DNA of 33,549 nt from Vulcanimicrobiota bacterium (GTDB lineage: Bacteria; Vulcanimicrobiota; Vulcanimicrobiia; Vulcanimicrobiales; Vulcanimicrobiaceae). The notes beneath the pieces were generated by a model. The model ran no database searches. It was not told the origin of the DNA and saw nothing but the letters and a program-made list of their open reading frames with translations. The DNA lies in assembly GCA_003158195.1 (NCBI GenBank), contig PMHP01000188.1, positions 1-33,549 on the forward strand. The letters are read 5' to 3'. Each line of letters opens with the position of its first letter. The first letter of the stretch is position 1. Of this stretch, positions 81 to 10,256 are shown piece after piece. The position numbers and the translations under genes are program-made.

Positions 81-1904
81 TTAGGCCAGGGCTAAGCTCT
101 TGCGGTCGATGTCGAACTGGTCTTCGGTGAGGGCCATCGTGCTCGGGCCGCCGTGCTGGATTTCGTGCGCGAGGGCGCTCGTCTTTGGGAGCACGTGTTC
201 GGCGTAGTAGCGGGCCGTCACGAGCTTGGCCGCGTAGAACTCGTCGTCCGGTTTCTTGGCGGCGACGAGTGCGGCTTTGCCCATCATCCACCCGCCCGCG
301 GTGTAACCCCACAGCATCAGATAGGGAACGGAGCCCGCGAACATCGCCTTCACGTCGCCCTTGCCGGAAAGCGCAAGCATGCCTTGCCCACCGAGCCACT
401 GCGACGAGGCGGCAAGCGCCCCGGCCGCAACCCCGAGTTGCTTGCCGATGGCCCGCAGGTCGTCGCGCTCGGACGCTTCGAGTTCCTTGACCGTTGCCTG
501 GATCTGGCCGATCACTTTGAGGGCAGTCTTGCCGTTGTCCTTAAGGAACTTGCGCCCGAGCAAGTCGTTGCTCTGAATGCCCGTCGTGCCTTCGTAGATC
601 TGGCAGATGCGAATGTCCCGATAGTACTGCGCGACGCCGGTCTCTTCGATGTACCCCATCCCACCGAACACTTGCAGCGCTTCCGAAGCGAGCCCGGTCG
701 ACACTTCCGTCGACCACGCCTTTACGAGCGGCGTGAACAACTCGACGAGTGACTGGGCCTCGGCCTTGGCGGCCTCGTCGGGATTCGCGTGCGCGTGGTC
801 GAGCATCGCCGCGGTGTAGAATCCGAGCGACCGCATCGCCTCGATCTGGCTCTTCTGGTTCATCAACATGCGCCGTACGTCGGGATGCTCGATGATCCGA
901 ACCGGCGTCCACTCCTTGGCCGCAATATCCTTGGACTGCACGCGGTCGCGCGCGTACGAGAGCGCGGCCTGGAACGCCCGGTCTGCGATCGAGTAGCCTT
1001 GCACGCCGACGGAAAAACGAGCGGCGTTCATCATGATGAACATGTACTTGAGGCCTTCGTTCTCCTTGCCGATCAAGTAACCGGTCGCGCCGCCCTTTTC
1101 GCCGTAGTTCATCGTGCACGTGGGCGAAGCGTGGATGCCCATCTTGTGTTCGATGCCCGCGCACACGATGTCGTTCGGCTCGCCGAGCGACCCGTCCGCG
1201 TTCACCAAGCGCTTGGGCACGACGAAGAGCGAGATGCCCTTGACGCCTTCAGGGGCCGTCGGCGTGCGCGCTAAGACCAAGTGGACGATGTTGTCGGTAT
1301 AGTCGTGCTCGCCGTACGTGATAAAAATTTTCTGACCGCTGATCAAATAATGGTCGCCCTGGGGAACGGCCTTCGACTTTACTTGCGCGAGATCCGAACC
1401 GGCTTGCGGCTCGGTAAGGTCCATCGTGCCGGTCCATTCGCCGCTGACGAGCTTGGGGATGTAGCGCTTCTTCTGTTCGTCCGTGCCGCAGAGCAAGATC
1501 GCCTCGATCGCGCCCTGGTTGAGGAGCGGCCCGTTCGAGAACGCCATGTTCGCGGACTGCCACATCTCGAGCACCGCCGTGCTGAGGGTCATCGGCAAGC
1601 CTTGGCCGCCATATTCGGGCGGCATCGGAAGACCGATCCAGCCGGCTTGCGCAAACTGCCGAAAGGCTTCCTTGAAGCCCTTCGGCAGCGTCACCTTGCC
1701 GTTGTCGAAGTGCGCGCCTTCCTTATCGCCCGTCTTATTGAGCGGGTCGAGCACGTTGGCTGCAAAATTGCCGGCCTCTTCGAGGATCGCCTCGAGAACG
1801 TCGGTCGTCTCTTCGTAGCCGGGCAGCTTCGCGACGCCGTCGATGTCCGCGATCTCTTTCATGTTAAACAGAAGGTCGCGAAGCGGTGCTTGATATTGGC
1901 TCAT
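81..1904 (-). CDS. Acyl-CoA dehydrogenase, large DmdC-type
   Basis: This 607-residue FAD enzyme should introduce a trans-2 double bond into an acyl-CoA and pass electrons to an electron-transfer flavoprotein. It has the usual order of N-terminal helical, middle beta and C-terminal helical domains, plus the extra C-terminal region that marks the roughly 600-residue class. That class includes 3-methylmercaptopropionyl-CoA dehydrogenase (DmdC) and many fatty acyl-CoA dehydrogenases. The motif YEGTTGIQ places the catalytic glutamate at about residue 438. The frame stays open to 2129, but the ATG at 1904 has a GAAAGAGAG ribosome site just upstream and begins where the family begins, so I chose it. 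A DmdB-like acyl-CoA ligase lies at 29791-31446. Substrate is unknown: DMSP breakdown is possible, ordinary fatty acid oxidation at least as likely. Confidence 0.93.
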   Translation of the reverse strand: MSQYQAPLRDLLFNMKEIADIDGVAKLPGYEETTDVLEAILEEAGNFAANVLDPLNKTGDKEGAHFDNGKVTLPKGFKEAFRQFAQAGWIGLPMPPEYGGQGLPMTLSTAVLEMWQSANMAFSNGPLLNQGAIEAILLCGTDEQKKRYIPKLVSGEWTGTMDLTEPQAGSDLAQVKSKAVPQGDHYLISGQKIFITYGEHDYTDNIVHLVLARTPTAPEGVKGISLFVVPKRLVNADGSLGEPNDIVCAGIEHKMGIHASPTCTMNYGEKGGATGYLIGKENEGLKYMFIMMNAARFSVGVQGYSIADRAFQAALSYARDRVQSKDIAAKEWTPVRIIEHPDVRRMLMNQKSQIEAMRSLGFYTAAMLDHAHANPDEAAKAEAQSLVELFTPLVKAWSTEVSTGLASEALQVFGGMGYIEETGVAQYYRDIRICQIYEGTTGIQSNDLLGRKFLKDNGKTALKVIGQIQATVKELEASERDDLRAIGKQLGVAAGALAASSQWLGGQGMLALSGKGDVKAMFAGSVPYLMLWGYTAGGWMMGKAALVAAKKPDDEFYAAKLVTARYYAEHVLPKTSALAHEIQHGGPSTMALTEDQFDIDRKSLALA

Positions 1905-1917
1905 GCGCTCTCTTTCA

Positions 1918-1929
1918 AAACCCGGGTTT
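1918..1929. promoter_or_regulatory. Perfect 12-bp palindrome upstream of the acyl-CoA dehydrogenase
   Basis: AAACCCGGGTTT is fully self-complementary and lies 13 bases upstream of the dehydrogenase start, just before its ribosome site. It could be a repressor operator, but no second copy or known regulator links to it here. The remainder of the 106-base gap to the next gene shows nothing I can name. Confidence 0.25.
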
Positions 1930-2010
1930 CGTAAAACGGTGGAAAGGGAGAAAGAACATTCGCTTGCCTGGGCCGGATCCCCGGCAAAACGCATATAGCT
2001 TCCAACGTTT

Positions 2011-2514
2011 TCATGACTCGGAATCTGCGACAAAAGCGGCAGTGTGGATCCGTTCGGCGATCGAGCGCGCCGCCGGCGACGGCAAGAACCCGAGTATGGC
2101 GCCGTTCCCGGAGCCGTAACAGACTTCAAGGACGGTGAAAAAGTGGTAGTCCCGCCGGCGCGCCGAGACGATCTGGGTCCACGGAATACAAACCTTGCCG
2201 AAGGCGAGGTCGAACGGCCGCATCGGGTGCAGGACGATCCCGGCGGCGTCCAGACCGATGCGCAGGGGCGGCCCGTTAAAGCCGAGCGGGCCGATGATCA
2301 CGCCGCCGGCCATCTCGGTACCCGCGCGGCTCGACCACGGGAAGCGCCTCGCGAGGGTGTGCCATCCCGTCAAGTACGCGAAGACGAACAGCATCGCGGC
2401 AGAAATCAGGAGCGCCACGACCAGGAACGATCCGAACAGCACCGCCGCGCTGCCGGCCGAGATCTCATCAGCCGCTCCGACCATCATCGGGAGGCGGACT
2501 TCGACGGTTCTCAT
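2011..2514 (-). CDS. Small membrane protein of unknown function, PH-like C-terminal part
   Basis: This is a 167-residue protein. A strongly hydrophobic stretch at roughly residues 25-55 should cross the membrane once or twice. The C-terminal half has alternating beta-type segments, with an IPW motif followed by a basic patch, which recalls bacterial PH-like domains. That resemblance is by pattern only. The ATG at 2514 overlaps the stop codon of the upstream recombinase gene in an ATGA arrangement, which suggests translational coupling or chance joining after an insertion. A longer frame runs to 2589, but its extra residues are Arg/Pro-rich and look like out-of-frame recombinase sequence. No TnpB motif (RuvC-like DED or zinc ribbon) is present. 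Confidence 0.6.
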   Translation of the reverse strand: MRTVEVRLPMMVGAADEISAGSAAVLFGSFLVVALLISAAMLFVFAYLTGWHTLARRFPWSSRAGTEMAGGVIIGPLGFNGPPLRIGLDAAGIVLHPMRPFDLAFGKVCIPWTQIVSARRRDYHFFTVLEVCYGSGNGAILGFLPSPAARSIAERIHTAAFVADSES

Positions 2515-3077
2515 GGGGTGTTCTTCGCACACGTGACCGCGCGCAGGGCGCGGTTGCGGGCGCCGCGCCGGCCGTAAATGCGAGCACAAAACGACGTGAG
2601 CACTTCGATCATGTCGCGCACAAGATCGTCGTTCTGCTCGTTTTCATCCACGACCAGGATGCGCCGTCCCTGCGCGGCCAGCGCCGACTCCAGGTACTCG
2701 ACACCAAAGCGCGCGAGCCGGTCGCGATGCTCGACGACAATGGGCGAGAGTGACGGATCGGAGAGTACGCGGCGAAACCGAACGCGTCGCCCATTCATCG
2801 CTGAACCGACTTCGGTCACGACTTCGACGACGGGAATCTTTGCTTGCGTTGCCCACGAGGCAATGCGCGCGACTTGGCGGTTGAGATCGTCGCGCTGATC
2901 GTGGCTGCTAACGCGAGCGTAGATGACCGCGCGGGTTTGCCGCTCTGGCGCAACGTCGACAAGGATCGTCCCGCTGTGTGTTTGGTGCGCGGGCACGGGC
3001 AGCGTCCCATCGCGCCACCAGCGGTAAGCGGTCAGGTAATGCACGCCTTGGAGTTTAGCCCAATCCACCAGCCGCAT
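2511..3077 (-). CDS. tnpA: IS607-family serine recombinase (TnpA), without TnpB
   Basis: This 188-residue protein has an N-terminal MerR-like helix-turn-helix at about residues 5-40, then a serine recombinase domain. Its motif YARVSSHDQ places the catalytic serine near residue 57. The ending, with ARIYGRRGARNRALRAV, is the normal end of the family, so the gene looks complete. IS607 elements usually carry tnpB directly after or overlapping tnpA. Here the next frame is an unrelated membrane protein, so the element is either a remnant or a domesticated recombinase. A palindrome lies 8 bases upstream of the start (3085-3108). No strong ribosome site is visible. Confidence 0.88.
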   Translation of the reverse strand: MRLVDWAKLQGVHYLTAYRWWRDGTLPVPAHQTHSGTILVDVAPERQTRAVIYARVSSHDQRDDLNRQVARIASWATQAKIPVVEVVTEVGSAMNGRRVRFRRVLSDPSLSPIVVEHRDRLARFGVEYLESALAAQGRRILVVDENEQNDDLVRDMIEVLTSFCARIYGRRGARNRALRAVTCAKNTP

Positions 3078-3084
3078 CTGGGCC

Positions 3085-3108
3085 GTATACGAGCATACGT
3101 TCGTATAC
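3085..3108. promoter_or_regulatory. Dyad just upstream of the IS607-type recombinase
   Basis: Perfect arms GTATACGA (3085-3092) and TCGTATAC (3101-3108) flank an 8-base centre. The site abuts the recombinase start. MerR-type proteins bind such dyads, so it could be an autoregulatory operator, the element's end bound by TnpA, or both. The function is inferred; the symmetry is read directly. Confidence 0.5.
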
Positions 3109-3147
3109 TCCTGCTAAATATCGTCAGAGCAGTTCGCGTACCCCTCC

Positions 3148-3777
3148 CTAGTACGGATAGTTCGTGGCTCGGGGCGTCGGGGTTGCGGTGGGCGCGCCGC
3201 TCGGCGTGGCGGTCGCGTGCGGCGTGGCGGTCGGCACGGCGGTCGCAGTCGGGGTCGGCGCGGGCGTCGGGCTTCCTGCCGGGACGGCGCTCGGGGTTGC
3301 AGTCGGGGCCGGGGTCACCGACGCGAGCGGGCGCGCTAAGCTGAAGCCTTCCGTTCCGTTGCCGGTGGACACGCCCGGCGAGTCTCCGGTAAACGTGTAC
3401 AGCGGTGCGCCGTTGTACGCGAGTTGCTTCTGGCCGTTATCGCTGCGCGTGAAGGACGACCACGGCGCAGAAAGCGCTCCCGCCGGCGGCGGTACGGACG
3501 GCCATGCGGCGAGGCATCCGCCCGTGCAGTTCGATTTATCCGCCGTGTCGCCGTCGAACGTGTAGACCGGCAGATCCGAGGACGTAACGAATGTGGGAGC
3601 GCCATCGATGTTCGCCGTTTGTAGAACGCTACTTCCGGCCGGTGCGGAGGTTGGTGACGCGGTGGATCGGGTTGCGCCGGGAGCCATGTACGAACTGCTG
3701 CCGCCGCCTCCGCCGCTGCAGCCGGTGACGAACATGATCCCGGCAAGTCCGAACGTTGCGAGTGACTTGTGTTGCAT
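3148..3777 (-). CDS. Secreted lipoprotein with YxxxxD-type repeats (Lipoprotein_15-like), copy A
   Basis: This 209-residue lipoprotein has a lipobox VTGC with lipidated Cys at about residue 20, then a Gly/Ser linker. Next come two units of the YTFDGD / YTFTGD kind, separated by a CTGGCLAAWP segment, as in the Lipoprotein_15 family (COG4315). A Pro/Thr/Ala-rich tail of about 55 residues ends the protein. The role of the family is not known to me. The frame is open to 3831, but the start at 3777 aligns with the start of the tandem paralogue at 3899-4465. The two genes also share sequence upstream (TCAGA, CGTA, TTCGT blocks). No clear ribosome site is seen for either. Confidence 0.85.
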   Translation of the reverse strand: MQHKSLATFGLAGIMFVTGCSGGGGGSSSYMAPGATRSTASPTSAPAGSSVLQTANIDGAPTFVTSSDLPVYTFDGDTADKSNCTGGCLAAWPSVPPPAGALSAPWSSFTRSDNGQKQLAYNGAPLYTFTGDSPGVSTGNGTEGFSLARPLASVTPAPTATPSAVPAGSPTPAPTPTATAVPTATPHATATPSGAPTATPTPRATNYPY

Positions 3778-3846
3778 GACGACGAACGTACGATGCATAT
3801 CTGAATGAAGTGTGAAAATAACGGCACGCAATCATTCATGAACACT

Positions 3847-3882
3847 GAAGCCCTGCGCGGGATCCGCGCAGGGCTTCTTTTT
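3847..3882 (+). terminator. Rho-independent terminator between the two lipoprotein genes
   Basis: A perfect 14-bp stem starting GAAGCCCTGCGCGG, with a GAT loop, is followed on the plus strand by TTTTT. On the minus strand, along which both flanking genes are read, the stem is followed by CAGTGTTC, a poor U-tract. The hairpin is certain. It would end antisense transcripts efficiently and could still slow transcription leaving the 3899-4465 gene. Confidence 0.8.
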
Positions 3883-3898
3883 CCGGATCGTTATCGTT

Positions 3899-4465
3899 CT
3901 AGTATGGGTTTGGCGCGGGCGTCGGCGTTCTCGTCGGAGCGGCAGTCGCCGACGGCGTAGCGCTCGGGCGAGCAAGGCTGAAGCCCATGACCCCTTGACC
4001 GCTCGCTACGCCCGGCGAATCGTCGGCGAACGTGTAGAGCGGCTGACCGTTGTATGCGAGCTGTTTTTGGCCGTTGTCGCTGCGCGTAAACGAAGACCAG
4101 GGTGAAGGCAGCGTTCCAGCCGGCGGCGGTACGGACGGCCATATGGCAAGACATCCGCCGGTGCAGTTGGATTTGTCCGTCGTGTCGCCGTCGAACGTGT
4201 AAACCGGAAAGTCCGACGACGTGATGAAAGCCGGGCCGCTATCGAGATTTTGCGTCTGAAGGACGCTTTGCGCCGATGGCGCTACCGTTGGGGCTGACGT
4301 TGGGGCTGACGTCGGGGCTGACGTCGGCGCCGACGTGGGCGTCGAAGAGGTCGAATGTGTCGTTGTCGCCGGCGTGATCGGCGAGCTGACGCCGCCTCCG
4401 CCGCTGCAGCCGGTGATCGCGATGATGCCGGCGAGGCCGAACGTGATGAGTGAAGTGCGTTTCAT
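3899..4465 (-). CDS. Secreted lipoprotein with YxxxxD-type repeats (Lipoprotein_15-like), copy B
   Basis: This 188-residue paralogue of the next gene downstream has the same N-terminal pattern (TFGLAGI, then ITGC with lipid Cys at residue 20). The core is nearly the same: YTFDGD, CTGGCLAIWPSVPPPAG, FTRSDNGQKQLAYNG and YTFADD. It differs in the linker after the lipobox, which holds four PTSA repeats (coding repeat at 4290-4337), and in a shorter Pro/Thr tail. The close core identity with divergent linkers points to a tandem duplication followed by linker expansion. Presumed surface-exposed; function unknown. Confidence 0.85.
   Translation of the reverse strand: MKRTSLITFGLAGIIAITGCSGGGGVSSPITPATTTHSTSSTPTSAPTSAPTSAPTSAPTVAPSAQSVLQTQNLDSGPAFITSSDFPVYTFDGDTTDKSNCTGGCLAIWPSVPPPAGTLPSPWSSFTRSDNGQKQLAYNGQPLYTFADDSPGVASGQGVMGFSLARPSATPSATAAPTRTPTPAPNPY
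4290..4337. repeat. 12-bp tandem repeat encoding PTSA units
   Basis: There are three near-identical 12-bp units (GGGGCTGACGTT or GGGGCTGACGTC on the plus strand) and a degenerate fourth. They encode a Pro-Thr-Ser-Ala linker in the lipoprotein read on the minus strand. A 12-bp unit keeps the frame, so copy number could change without breaking the protein. Confidence 0.85.
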
Positions 4466-4519
4466 AGTTCACGAAGATACGGGGTAGGTCTGAACGAAAT
4501 CTGAAGCCCGCGATGAACC

Positions 4520-5851
4520 TTACGCCGAGCGGCGGCCCGATTCCAATAGGTCTTCGACCGCGTCTTCGAGGTGGCGCAGACGATTGCACACCGTCGCGAC
4601 GTGACAATACGGCAGGTAACGCAACATGACGGAGTCGTCGAGGCCCCACGAAACGCGCGGTTCCGGGTTCAGCCAAACGACGCGCTTCGCGCGCTCGTAG
4701 AGATGTTTGAGGACGTCGATGCGCGGTTCGCCGTAATTCGAGCGGCCGTCGCCGAGGATGACGACCGTCGTGCGCCGATCGACGGCGTCGGCAAACGCGC
4801 TTTCGAAATCTCCGAGGGACCGTCCGTAGTCCGAGGACCGGAAGCCAAGCGCGTCCATCACTTCAACGATCGCCTCTTCGAAGGATTTCGTTTCGAAGAT
4901 CTCGCTCGTTTCGATCAGGCGGTTCGCAAAAGCAAACGAGCGGACGTCGGCGACCTCTTCGGTGAGCGCGTAGACGAAAAGCAGCAAGAAGTGTGCGAGC
5001 GCGGCGACCGACCCGCTGACGTCGCAGAGCAGCATGATGCGCGGCTTCTCGATTCGCACCCGGCGCCACGCCGTGCGAAACGGAACGGCGTCGAAGGCGA
5101 TGTTGCGGCGCAGGGTGCGGCGTACGTCGAGCCGGCCGCGGCGCGCCCGGCGGTGCAGGCGGCCGTAGCGGGTCGCAAGGCGCCGGGCCATCGCGCGCAC
5201 GATCCCGCGCATCCGTTCGACGTCACGCCGGTCGACGTTGATCAGGCGGGCGTCGCGCAGGAACTCATCGCGCGCGGCTTCGGGCGCACCCCCGGCCGTC
5301 GGCGCTAAGCGCCGCTCGACGATGTCGCGCGCCAGTTCGGCGACCGCGCGGCGCCGTTCGTCGAGAAACTCCGCAATCCGCGCGTCCTCGGGGTTACCGG
5401 TTGCGCGAAACCGGGCGATCGTCTCTTCGAGCCCGGCGATGCCCATGATCTCAAGGATGCGCCGCGCGTAGCGGTTGATCTGCGTGAACAGCCGTACGTC
5501 CGAGACGTTCGCTTCCGCGGCCGCGGCAAACAGCGCGCGAATCAGCGCGGCCCGATCGTCGTCGAGCAGGATCTGCGCGAGCGTGGAATCGACCTGCGCG
5601 TCGATCGGCGCCCGCTCGTCCGGCGGCAGTTCGAGGTTCGCAAGTCCGAAGTAGCGTTCGAAGCACTGATCGAACCGCTCGCGCTCGTCGTCGTCCTTCG
5701 CAAGGACGAGCTGCAGCGTGTCCTTGAGGAGCTGCCGATCCTCGTAGCCGACCAGCTCCGTCGCCTCGAACGCCTCGATGCTCTCGGCCACCGAGATCGC
5801 AATCCCCGCATTCCGCGCGACGTTCAGGAATCCGATCAGCGGTGCTTTCAT
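4520..5851 (-). CDS. CoxE-type VWA domain protein
   Basis: This 443-residue protein has an N-terminal helical half with many charged residues. Its C-terminal half is a von Willebrand factor A domain of the VWA_CoxE class. The metal-binding DVSGS motif starts near residue 277, followed by a long hydrophobic helix. Such proteins act with MoxR-type AAA ATPases in metal insertion or assembly of other proteins. A MoxR ATPase is encoded at 9309-10256. The frame is open to 6085, but the first 78 residues are Arg-rich and run into the divergent gene; the ATG at 5851 starts a normal family N-terminus. No good ribosome site is visible there. The gene is divergent from the hydrolase at 5962, leaving a 110-base shared promoter region with no obvious operator. 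Confidence 0.85.
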   Translation of the reverse strand: MKAPLIGFLNVARNAGIAISVAESIEAFEATELVGYEDRQLLKDTLQLVLAKDDDERERFDQCFERYFGLANLELPPDERAPIDAQVDSTLAQILLDDDRAALIRALFAAAAEANVSDVRLFTQINRYARRILEIMGIAGLEETIARFRATGNPEDARIAEFLDERRRAVAELARDIVERRLAPTAGGAPEAARDEFLRDARLINVDRRDVERMRGIVRAMARRLATRYGRLHRRARRGRLDVRRTLRRNIAFDAVPFRTAWRRVRIEKPRIMLLCDVSGSVAALAHFLLLFVYALTEEVADVRSFAFANRLIETSEIFETKSFEEAIVEVMDALGFRSSDYGRSLGDFESAFADAVDRRTTVVILGDGRSNYGEPRIDVLKHLYERAKRVVWLNPEPRVSWGLDDSVMLRYLPYCHVATVCNRLRHLEDAVEDLLESGRRSA

Positions 5852-5961
5852 TGGAGTTGGGAGTTTCGAGCGTCGCCGTGGCACAAACCTTGGGGCTTCG
5901 CGCAGGCTTCGAGGGGCGCACACTTGCGGCCATCTTGAAAAGCGTGGTTGAATCGAAGCGC

Positions 5962-6747
5962 ATGAAATTCGCGACGATCGTGACGGCCTTTCTGTGCGCG
6001 GCTCTGCTCGGCGCGCCCGGGGGCGCCGGCGCCGCCGAGAAGACCAGTATCCCGGCGACCACCACGACCCCGCAGTTGCCCGCATATCTCGCGCGCCCCC
6101 AGAACGCTGCGCCGGCGCCGGGCGTGCTTATCCTTCACGATTGCAAAGGCCTCAGTCCCCACTACGAAAAGGTCGCCGAGCATTTCGCAAGCCGCGGTTA
6201 CGTCGCGGTCGCCATCGACTCGCTGTCCCCGCAAAAACTCTCCTCCGGTTGCACGGACGTAGCCGGCCAGGCGCGCACGCAGGCTGCTTACGCCCGCGCC
6301 GCGCTCGACTGGATGCGCGCGCAACCCTACATCGACGGTACGCGCCTGGGGCTCTTGGGATACTCGATGGGGGGCATCGCGGCGCTCGACATCGTCGACT
6401 CACCGGAGGCAAGCGCAATCCCGGCCGGCCTTCGAGCGGTGGTGGCGTACTACCCCGTCTGCCGCGACCGCGATCCCAAGCGCGTCGCGCTGCCGATTCG
6501 GATCCTCGACGGCGGCGACGACGACTGGGCGCCTGCAGCGCCATGCCAGGCGCTCGCCGACGCCGCGACGGCAGCCGGAAAGACGGTTACCATCACGACG
6601 TATCCGGGCGCGACCCACGCCTTCAACTTCGATGCCCCCGACCGCATCGAGTTCGGACATCCGATGCGCTACAACGCCGAGGCCGCCTACGAGGCCGGCG
6701 CGGAGACGATCATCTTTTTCCACCGGTATCTGAGCGCGACGCCGTAG
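5962..6747 (+). CDS. Exported dienelactone hydrolase-family alpha/beta hydrolase
   Basis: This 261-residue protein has a clear signal peptide (about residues 1-24, ending GAGAA), so it probably acts outside the cytoplasm. The alpha/beta hydrolase core carries the nucleophile in GYSMGG (Ser in place of the Cys of classical dienelactone hydrolase), the acid in a DGGDDDW segment and the histidine in GATHAFNF. The family hydrolyses esters or lactones; substrate unknown. The frame is open from 5842, but the ATG at 5962 begins the signal peptide. It is a single-gene transcript, divergent from the CoxE-type gene and convergent with the lipoprotein gene 10 bases further on. Confidence 0.85.
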   Translation: MKFATIVTAFLCAALLGAPGGAGAAEKTSIPATTTTPQLPAYLARPQNAAPAPGVLILHDCKGLSPHYEKVAEHFASRGYVAVAIDSLSPQKLSSGCTDVAGQARTQAAYARAALDWMRAQPYIDGTRLGLLGYSMGGIAALDIVDSPEASAIPAGLRAVVAYYPVCRDRDPKRVALPIRILDGGDDDWAPAAPCQALADAATAAGKTVTITTYPGATHAFNFDAPDRIEFGHPMRYNAEAAYEAGAETIIFFHRYLSATP

Positions 6748-6757
6748 TCGACTCGAA

Positions 6758-8443
6758 CTAGAGTGCGGCTGAACCGTTCGGTGACGAGCAGCCGCGCGGG
6801 ATGTTGTCGACCTTCGAGACGAGACTGAGCGGCGGCTTGATCTCGACGAGCGATCCGTCGGCCTGGAGTGTCTGGAGGTTGAACGCGCGTAGGAAAAAGT
6901 TGATCCCGTCGACGAGTGCCTGCGGCATTTTGTAGCCGATACCGCCGCCGAGATCGATGTCGAACGTCCCCTGATTGCACGGCATCATACCGACGCCGCC
7001 CGCCACCATTCCGGGCCCGGCGCCGTTGCCCATCGACGGGGCCCGCAACGCGGATGCGCCGGCGCTGAACGAGACGTACGGTCCCGTCGCAAAGCCGAAG
7101 GCACCGATCCCGACCATGACGCGCGCGCCGTAAGCGAGGACGAGCGAGTTGATGCCGGCAGACATCCCGTCGATGTCTTGCGCGAGATTGTGGTCGGTGT
7201 GCAATTCCGAGGGGCCGCCCACGGCCTGCCAGCGGCCATTGACGTACCCGACCGTCAGCGAGCCCGCCATGCGATAGTCGGCCTTCGCGCTCAGCGTCGA
7301 GTTCTTGACGCTGAAGCCGGTGCTGAGGGTGATCGAGTTGCGCGCCGTGACGGAGAGCGGAACGGCCATGCCGCCGATGGGCCACGTGATGTCGACCGGC
7401 ATGTAGATCGTTTTATGCACGTTGCCGCTCAGTCCGACCGGCGATGCGGCGTCGAAGCTTACGTGCAGACCGGCCGCGCCATAAACGGTTACGTCCGCGT
7501 CGGTGACCGTACCGTGGACGATTTTCAGACGGAAGTAGATTCGCGGTGCGGACAGTGTGAACGATGTCGCTGCGTCGATCGCGAGATTCGGATCCTTATG
7601 CGAAAGGCTCAACCCCAGACCCTCGCACCCGCACGGTCCTAACTGAAAGCCTTGAATGTCGCGCATCTGCGGCAGCGCTCCGATCGTCGGCTCGGGAATC
7701 CCGTTCGCGCCGCTCGCGGCATTGCCGATCGCGTTTGCGGCCCCGGCCGGCAGGTTGGGGTCTGCCGGTGCGATCTGCATGTCGGAGGCGAAACGGACGA
7801 ACCCGCCGTCGGAGGGCTGCCCAGGCATCTCCGGGATCGGAGCGTACGCGACGTTCCGGCGTGAGTCGCCGATTGCGCCGGGATAGTCCGGCGCGTAGTA
7901 GTTGATCGAGTTGCCTTGATCGATCGACTGACTGGCGACGAAATCGCCTTCCTTGATGACGTCGTTGATCTGGGCCGGGCCGAGGATCACCGAGACGGCG
8001 TCGGCGGTGCGTTCCACGTGCAGGACGCGTCCGACGGCGCGGCTCGTTGCGAAAAGGATCTTGCCTTCGGCAATCTGGTCCGCGCCGGGCGCATGCGCGT
8101 CGATCGTCCAGGTCATTCCATTCGTCGCCGCCGCTTGGATCGCGCGGTCACCGTTTTCCATCAGGACGACGTCGTCGCCGTACGTTACGCGTGAATCGCG
8201 TTTGGGGGCGGTCCCGTAGTGCAGTTCGGTCGGCGTGAGCGCGTGTGGATCGACGGGTTGCCCGACGATCGTGTCCGGACCATACGGCTCCTCGCCGGCC
8301 GGCGGCGGAGGCATATCGGCGATCGTAAGCGTGCGGCCGGGAGCTGCGGGGGCCGTGGCGTCCGTCGCGTCATGGTGCGCGCAGCCGCTCAGCATGGCGA
8401 GCACGGTAAGAAGCGCGACGCCGCGGTCGCAGAATGTCGACAT
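6758..8443 (-). CDS. Large lipoprotein of unknown function
   Basis: I do not recognise this 561-residue protein. Residues 1-21 form a lipoprotein signal with lipobox LSGC and lipid Cys at residue 21. A Pro/Ala-rich linker follows. Next is a segment (about 85-180) where short beta-like stretches mention exposed Gly/Asp turns (YGDDVVLMENGDRAI and similar), then a Gly/Ala-rich middle. The last 250 residues are alternating polar and hydrophobic beta-type sequence with many Gly, ending in FLRAFNLQTL and a SPNGSAAL tail. A strong ribosome site (GAAGGAGA, 5 bases before the ATG) supports the start. The beta-rich C-terminal half could be a sandwich or barrel. Convergent with the hydrolase gene. Confidence 0.8.
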   Translation of the reverse strand: MSTFCDRGVALLTVLAMLSGCAHHDATDATAPAAPGRTLTIADMPPPPAGEEPYGPDTIVGQPVDPHALTPTELHYGTAPKRDSRVTYGDDVVLMENGDRAIQAAATNGMTWTIDAHAPGADQIAEGKILFATSRAVGRVLHVERTADAVSVILGPAQINDVIKEGDFVASQSIDQGNSINYYAPDYPGAIGDSRRNVAYAPIPEMPGQPSDGGFVRFASDMQIAPADPNLPAGAANAIGNAASGANGIPEPTIGALPQMRDIQGFQLGPCGCEGLGLSLSHKDPNLAIDAATSFTLSAPRIYFRLKIVHGTVTDADVTVYGAAGLHVSFDAASPVGLSGNVHKTIYMPVDITWPIGGMAVPLSVTARNSITLSTGFSVKNSTLSAKADYRMAGSLTVGYVNGRWQAVGGPSELHTDHNLAQDIDGMSAGINSLVLAYGARVMVGIGAFGFATGPYVSFSAGASALRAPSMGNGAGPGMVAGGVGMMPCNQGTFDIDLGGGIGYKMPQALVDGINFFLRAFNLQTLQADGSLVEIKPPLSLVSKVDNIPRGCSSPNGSAAL

Positions 8444-8564
8444 GAAATCTCCTTCGCAGGTGATGTTTCACGTCGATCATGGAGCCCGTGCGTCCATTGC
8501 GCGTCCATTTCGTTCCATTTGGGCGCCGGAGGGCGGACGCGTAGGGACCGGGACCATCGGCCCG

Positions 8565-9290
8565 CTATCGCTTTCCCTTGCCAATGTAGGCGGCGAACGG
8601 ATCGTCTTTCGTGTCATCGACAAAGTTCGAAAGATGAAATCCCGCTACGCGGCGGTACCCGATGTCGGCAACAAAGCTGTGGGCGGTCGTTTGCGGCTTG
8701 CGCGCCGCGACGGTCGTGCACGCATCGAGGAACGCCGGGATGAAGTGGGTGCGCGGGGCCGCATTGAGAACGGCGACAATGTCGCGCCGTTTGAGAACTT
8801 CCAGCATATTCCCGAAGTCCGCCGAGACGCCGGCATGTACCAGCTGCACTTCGGGCTCCTTCCAGCGCGCAATGCCGCCATTGTCGTGAAGCGCGACAGC
8901 ATCCCAAACGAGGCCGGCTCGCGCGTCGTTTATTGCGTGGCGTTCCAGCAACGACCGTGCGACGTCGGCGCCGTCAACCTCAAAGCAACGATCGGCGCTC
9001 ATATACCGCGCGCTCAGACCAGTATCGTGGACGATTGAAGCGACATAGACGAGCTCCGTGTCGTGCGAAGTGCGGTGCGCGCGCGCCAGCAGCTCCGCGA
9101 AGAGAAACGTGCGTAGCGAATGATTGAAAATTTCAGCCGAGACCGCATTTCGCGCAATCTCCGTTGCCTCTTTGGCAAGCGCGCTGTCGGGAATTCGAAT
9201 GCCGGCGATGCTGCGCGGCAGCGACGTATCCTGCGACCGAGCAACCAGCGCTGACGCCGTTGAGGCTGCGAGAAAATCCGCCCTTTTCAC
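8565..9290 (-). CDS. HD-domain phosphohydrolase-like protein with a possible export signal
   Basis: This 241-residue protein carries an HD-domain metal site: His57 in NHSLR, the His88-Asp89 pair in IVHDTGL, and a later HD at about 135-136. Overall it resembles the small HD proteins annotated as cyanamide hydratase-like, but the substrate is not known. The N-terminus (KRADFLAASTASALVA) looks like a weak twin-arginine-type signal with KR in place of RR, so export is possible but unsure. It lies 18 bases downstream of the MoxR gene on the same strand and may be the last gene of the crotonase-SDR-MoxR operon. Confidence 0.75.
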   Translation of the reverse strand: MKRADFLAASTASALVARSQDTSLPRSIAGIRIPDSALAKEATEIARNAVSAEIFNHSLRTFLFAELLARAHRTSHDTELVYVASIVHDTGLSARYMSADRCFEVDGADVARSLLERHAINDARAGLVWDAVALHDNGGIARWKEPEVQLVHAGVSADFGNMLEVLKRRDIVAVLNAAPRTHFIPAFLDACTTVAARKPQTTAHSFVADIGYRRVAGFHLSNFVDDTKDDPFAAYIGKGKR

Positions 9291-9308
9291 CTCGAACTCA
9301 TACTGCCG

Positions 9309-10256
9309 TCAGTTAAACGTCCCGTACCGGCTCACGACGTCGCGGACGAGCGCGTCGACCTGACGGTTCGCCGCCACGACGTCCGCTTCGTACTTGAGCA
9401 GCAGATTGAGGGTCGCGCGCACGATCTCCGGCTCGAGGTCGGCGACGTGCAGGAGCAGCAGCGCGCGGGCCCAGTCGATCGTCTCGCTGACCGACGGGAG
9501 CTTCTTGAGTTCGAGACCGCGCAGACGCTGCACGAAGGCGACCAGCTGACGGCGCAGGCGATCTTCAATCTCCGGGACGCGCACCTCGATGATGCGCTGC
9601 TCGAGCGTCTGGTCCGGGTAGCCGATGTGCAGGTGCAGGCAGCGCCGCTTGAGCGCGTCACCGAGATCGCGTGAATTGTTCGATGTCAGCACGACGAGCG
9701 GCGGAACGATCGCGGTGAACGTGCCGAGTTCGGGAATCGTTATCGCATAGTCGGAGAGGATCTCGAGCAGGAACGCTTCGAATTCTTGATCGGACTTGTC
9801 GACCTCGTCGACGAGCAGCACGGCGCCGTGCGGCTGGCGCAGGGCGCGAAGCAGCGGCCGCGGCTCGAGGAATTGCTCCGAGAAGAACGCTTCGTCGATG
9901 TCGCCGAGCTTTGCCAGCGACGCCTCGAGCCCGACGACATCGCGCAAGGTCTCGCTCATCTTATCGCGCAAGATCTGCGTGTACAGGAGCTGCTTGCCGT
10001 ACTTCCACTCGTAGATCGCCTTGGCTTCGTCGAGGCCCTCGTAGCACTGCATGCGGATCAGGGGCAAACCGGTGAACGCCGCCGTCGCTTTGGCGAGCTC
10101 GGTCTTTCCGACGCCGGCCGGACCTTCGACGAGGATCGGCTTGCGCAGGTGATGCGCGAGATAGATTGCGGTCGAAACCTGGCGGCTCGCGATGTACCCG
10201 GCCGAGGCGAGCCCGGCTTCGATTTCGTCGATCGAGCCGACGCGCGATGCGTCTAT
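9309..10256 (-). CDS. MoxR-family AAA ATPase
   Basis: This 315-residue ATPase has Walker A GPAGVGKTE at about 45-53, Walker B LLVDEV, sensor 1 SNNSRD and an arginine region KRRCLHLHIGYP. These are typical of MoxR proteins that remodel VWA-domain partners, here probably the CoxE-type protein at 4520-5851. The frame is open up to 10778, but no ATG, GTG or TTG lies near the expected N-terminus. Family members start 15-25 residues before the AGYIA segment. The fitting position is an ATA codon at 10254-10256, which overlaps the TAG stop of the SDR gene, just as ATGA overlaps do elsewhere in this window. I therefore set the start there with reserve. Confidence 0.85.
   Translation of the reverse strand: MDASRVGSIDEIEAGLASAGYIASRQVSTAIYLAHHLRKPILVEGPAGVGKTELAKATAAFTGLPLIRMQCYEGLDEAKAIYEWKYGKQLLYTQILRDKMSETLRDVVGLEASLAKLGDIDEAFFSEQFLEPRPLLRALRQPHGAVLLVDEVDKSDQEFEAFLLEILSDYAITIPELGTFTAIVPPLVVLTSNNSRDLGDALKRRCLHLHIGYPDQTLEQRIIEVRVPEIEDRLRRQLVAFVQRLRGLELKKLPSVSETIDWARALLLLHVADLEPEIVRATLNLLLKYEADVVAANRQVDALVRDVVSRYGTFN

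Follow-up and report, generated by a model that had tools for sequence, protein, structure and literature searches.

In a 33,549-nt stretch of contig PMHP01000188.1 from Vulcanimicrobiota bacterium (GCA_003158195.1), hereafter the window, we identified what is in all probability (roughly 0.85) the left part of a decayed insertion sequence of the IS607 family (IS1535 type) from which tnpB and the right end have been deleted, an event that brought an unrelated open reading frame (ORF) behind tnpA. We regard it as an ordinary decayed IS607 element. A preliminary description had offered two readings, a decayed element in front of a host gene and a recombinase recruited for another job. The first is supported: the left end is present, tnpB and the right end are gone, the genome holds a second broken copy and a relative has decayed in parallel. 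The second is not, as there is no conserved pair of tnpA and membrane protein gene in 98 genomes, and 149 genomes from the phylum yielded no orthologue of the ORF. The features are listed in Table 1.

Table 1. Positions of the element and the adjoining ORF in the window.
Feature	Position	Strand	Description
Left end of IS607-type element	3121-3144	-	GGGG (candidate GG crossover), then TACGCGAACTGCTCTGACGA
Subterminal inverted repeat GTATACGA-ACGTATGC-TCGTATAC	3085-3108	-	Read from sequence; same in L002
tnpA	2511-3077	-	Open frame of 188 codons; complete IS607-family serine transposase; matches NF033518 and PDB 6dgb
ATGAGAACC	2506-2514	-	ATGA overlap of tnpA stop and tnpB start; first three codons as in tnpB of L007, L015 and L019
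167-aa ORF	2011-2514	-	Begins at the ATG in the ATGA of the tnpA stop; one predicted N-terminal helix; orphan

A complete tnpA behind a conserved left end

The window TnpA matched NF033518 (transpos_IS607) with 202.5 bits (cut-off 110) over model positions 2-187 of 187, and a search of PDB sequences aligned its residues 50-188 with the TnpA of IS1535 (PDB 6dgb). It has the architecture of IS607 transposases, an N-terminal DNA-binding domain followed by a resolvase domain (Pfam Resolvase, residues 50-177), and its YARVSS motif is intact at residues 53-58. We take S57 of this motif (2907-2909) to be the catalytic serine. The full-length match and the presence of YARVSS bear out the earlier claim that TnpA is intact.

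The left end, GGGGTACGCGAACTGCTC (3144-3127), starts 3 bases past the stop codon (3148-3150) of the preceding lipoprotein gene. It aligned with the left ends found in eight further copies or elements, the consensus being GGGGTTGCGAACTGTTCGG, and the homology of the window element with a second copy in the genome, L002, ends at the same point. According to two published accounts, IS607 goes into GG sites, produces no target duplication there and requires TnpA alone (PMC6188088, PMC4058570). The GG-type junction that the preliminary description had suggested looking for was found on the left side as GGGG followed by the conserved left-end sequence, and matched the eight others. The subterminal inverted repeat, which has no further copy downstream in the window, may be a TnpA binding site and promoter region.

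The preceding gene is one of two tandem secreted-repeat lipoprotein genes (3148-3777 and 3899-4465; Pfam Lipoprotein_15) whose products are 71% identical and have proline/threonine-rich tails. An 8.3-kb block (1905-10252) between a short-chain dehydrogenase gene and an acyl-CoA dehydrogenase gene holds an AAA ATPase gene, a VWA/CoxE gene, two lipoprotein genes, tnpA, the ORF and others; the ATPase frame has no common start codon directly past the dehydrogenase stop. In five related genomes (G014, G021, G031, G003, G007), genes for enoyl-CoA hydratase, short-chain dehydrogenase and acyl-CoA dehydrogenase adjoin, the middle one having been found by tblastn in four of them and read from the DNA in G021. 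No tRNA genes were found in the window, and Rfam returned one chance match, below its cut-off, in 1800-3900.

The tnpA stop codon and the missing tnpB and right end

The ATGA overlap between the tnpA stop and the start of the next ORF is present as the preliminary description had stated. That description took it as a hint of a joined pair. From the collected loci we obtained 31 distinct tnpA genes in which a catalytic and C-terminal motif could be recognised, the window's own and 30 others (tnpA of L033 and L042 escaped the motif filter and lie outside the 30). ATGA stands at the tnpA stop in 14 of the 30 and in all eight full-length IS607 tnpA genes from genomes in the family and order of the host. 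In 24 of the 30 a second ORF, 300 aa or longer, lies at the stop; two of the other six run off the locus (L031, L040) and four have broken or short second genes (L004, L014, L030, L086). Seven second ORFs were scanned against curated families: three of six carried TnpB Pfam domains, and the remaining three, together with that of L015, matched TIGR01766 (TnpB-related) above cut-off. Because so many tnpA genes share ATGA and a second ORF at their stop, and the ORFs scanned are TnpB-like, we conclude that ATGA is the normal tnpA/tnpB junction of the family. On these comparisons the overlap in the window is inherited from that arrangement and does not point to any special partnership between tnpA and the ORF.

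Among the IS607 elements, six (L007, L015, L019, L036, L041, L044) have a long second gene of 488 to 590 aa. At E 0.001 Pfam gave no TnpB match for the three that were scanned, and four of four scanned reached the TIGR01766 cut-off; judged by sequence, these genes represent a divergent type of TnpB. A lone tnpB with TnpB Pfam domains was also found in L079 (G000 contig 40, 2477-3574), with no IS607 tnpA detected nearby; its flanking genes are presumably trpD and trpC.

The inherited junction bears directly on the idea that the host recruited the recombinase as a regulator or switch working with a membrane protein. An intact tnpA and frames coupled in ATGA would suit such a role. However, the coupling comes with the tnpA/tnpB arrangement, relatives of tnpA are patchy (matches at E ≤ 0.001 in 11 of the 98 genomes, the host's own included, with none elsewhere closer than 64% identity), and the other 97 genomes lack the ORF, making recruitment extremely unlikely. 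The host genus contributes one genome to this set.

The preliminary description had reported tnpB missing. In agreement with this, the best E was 0.34 when the six frames of 1501-3600 were searched with a profile built from 18 TnpB-like proteins, and neither tblastn nor the profile found a tnpB remnant above noise, or one longer than a few codons, behind tnpA. A tnpB behind tnpA is usual in IS607 elements, although movement is possible without it. As tnpB is absent, we file the window element as a decayed remnant and not as an intact element.

The right ends of intact relatives close with ..AACGG, and we found no convincing candidate for such an end downstream of tnpA. AACGG occurs at 2273-2277, 2102-2106 and 2050-2054 and within the acyl-CoA dehydrogenase gene, always inside ORFs. 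None of these lies next to a copy of CGTATAC, the element's own motif, which is present only at the left end. Could the element instead have ended at the tnpA stop, as a minimal tnpA-only version? The sequence there, ATGAGAACCG, resembles the right-end core AGAACGG and shows a one-base likeness to the right ends of elements such as L008 (GAGAACGG). However, this join lacks GG, has no subterminal motif ahead of it and includes ATGAGAACC, which in L007, L015 and L019 is an ordinary tnpB start; we consider a tnpA-only element very improbable.

Origin of the ORF behind tnpA

By codon usage relative to the window's genes, the frame of the ORF was the best of six, with a score of 0.33 per codon compared to 0.51 for the acyl-CoA dehydrogenase gene, and on this basis it looks coding. 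Its structure model was poor (mean pLDDT 51.8) and confident only for an N-terminal helix at about residues 20-57, which is probably a membrane segment. The earlier PH-like label gained no confirmation: family searches returned nothing up to E 10, PDB sequences gave no match, and the model is too poor past residue 58 to bear on it. Searches of Pfam, NCBIfam, PHROGs and PDB sequences with the ORF gave no match; no homologue at E ≤ 0.001 was found in any other of the 149 genomes of the phylum, where five matches with E 0.003 to 0.05 were short and partial, and none in plasmids, phages or IMG/VR.

An ORF so restricted might be an acquired gene, carried as cargo in place of tnpB by a mobile IS607 element with its right end past the ORF. 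Such a version could move if TnpA alone is sufficient for transposition, as the two accounts have it (PMC6188088, PMC4058570). Yet downstream there is no ..AACGG core beside the CGTATAC motif, and the pair of tnpA and ORF has no second copy in the host genome and none in relatives, plasmids or phages. We therefore judge cargo improbable.

We favor loss of tnpB by deletion, with the join at about tnpB codon 3 to 9. Past its first few codons the ORF appears to be unrelated to tnpB. Its first three codons, ATGAGAACC, encode M-R-T and match base for base the start of tnpB in L007, L015 and L019; AGA is scarce in the host, where 18 genes contain 650 arginine codons, of which 6 are AGA. A profile built from 16 TnpB starts was not significant, as 44 of 493 ORF starts, real TnpBs included, scored as high as that of the ORF. 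Scored against six types of TnpB start, an analysis done post hoc, after the likeness had been noticed, the ORF reached 22; of 434 ORF starts, only six others got as far, all of them real TnpBs. These data are suggestive only of first codons derived from tnpB.

In the sequence of events that we propose, the element would have inserted by its left GG directly behind the lipoprotein gene. A later deletion would have taken almost the whole of tnpB, any DNA that followed it and the right end. It would have spared tnpA and moved the unrelated ORF up to where tnpB once started, so that the ORF now begins at or very near the tnpB ATG. The ORF may then be translated by coupling to tnpA, and we infer that it is expressed. 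A more specific version, in which an in-frame fusion of the first tnpB codons with a membrane-protein ORF of the host formed a new chimeric gene driven by the left-end promoter and coupled to tnpA, is possible but rather doubtful.

Broken copies and comparison with known IS607 elements

The deletion was not seen directly because the genomes searched contain neither an intact copy of the window element nor an empty site. The flanking genes offered no usable one, as the acyl-CoA dehydrogenase and lipoprotein genes are not neighbours in the same arrangement in relatives. The host genome has one further copy, L002, which is 97% identical at the DNA level over 158 bp, beginning at the left end and reaching tnpA codon 39, and then gives way to unrelated DNA. 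A polymer-depolymerase gene fragment seen by eye behind L002 had no Pfam match and is not claimed. In G062, a genome from the same order, the tnpA of L014 is open and tnpB is cut after its first 14 nt, followed by an ORF that we read from its translation as DoxX-like; by sequence, L014 is a parallel loss of tnpB just past its start. The tnpB of a second locus in G062, L004, has an internal loss.

A membrane-type ORF follows tnpA in both the window and L014 after loss of tnpB. An ATGA behind an IS607 tnpA is the residue of a tnpB start, so a gene placed there after tnpB is lost can mimic an operon partner. If expressed, the window's ORF would provide a minor example of a host gene taking over the expression signals of a transposon.

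The window element resembles IS1535 of Mycobacterium tuberculosis, an IS607-family element, in its TnpA catalytic domain, whose alignment runs from residue 50 through the final one (197 bits), and its left end is of the same type as those of IS607 elements on mycobacterial plasmids. By contrast with IS1535, it lacks tnpB and a right end. Its closest counterparts are eight IS607 elements found in the family and order of the host (L004-L008, L014, L015, L019), with TnpA 57-64% identical and ATGA at every tnpA stop. Six of the eight differ from it in keeping a second gene of at least 300 aa, whereas L004 has the internal tnpB loss and L014, like the window element, has lost tnpB.
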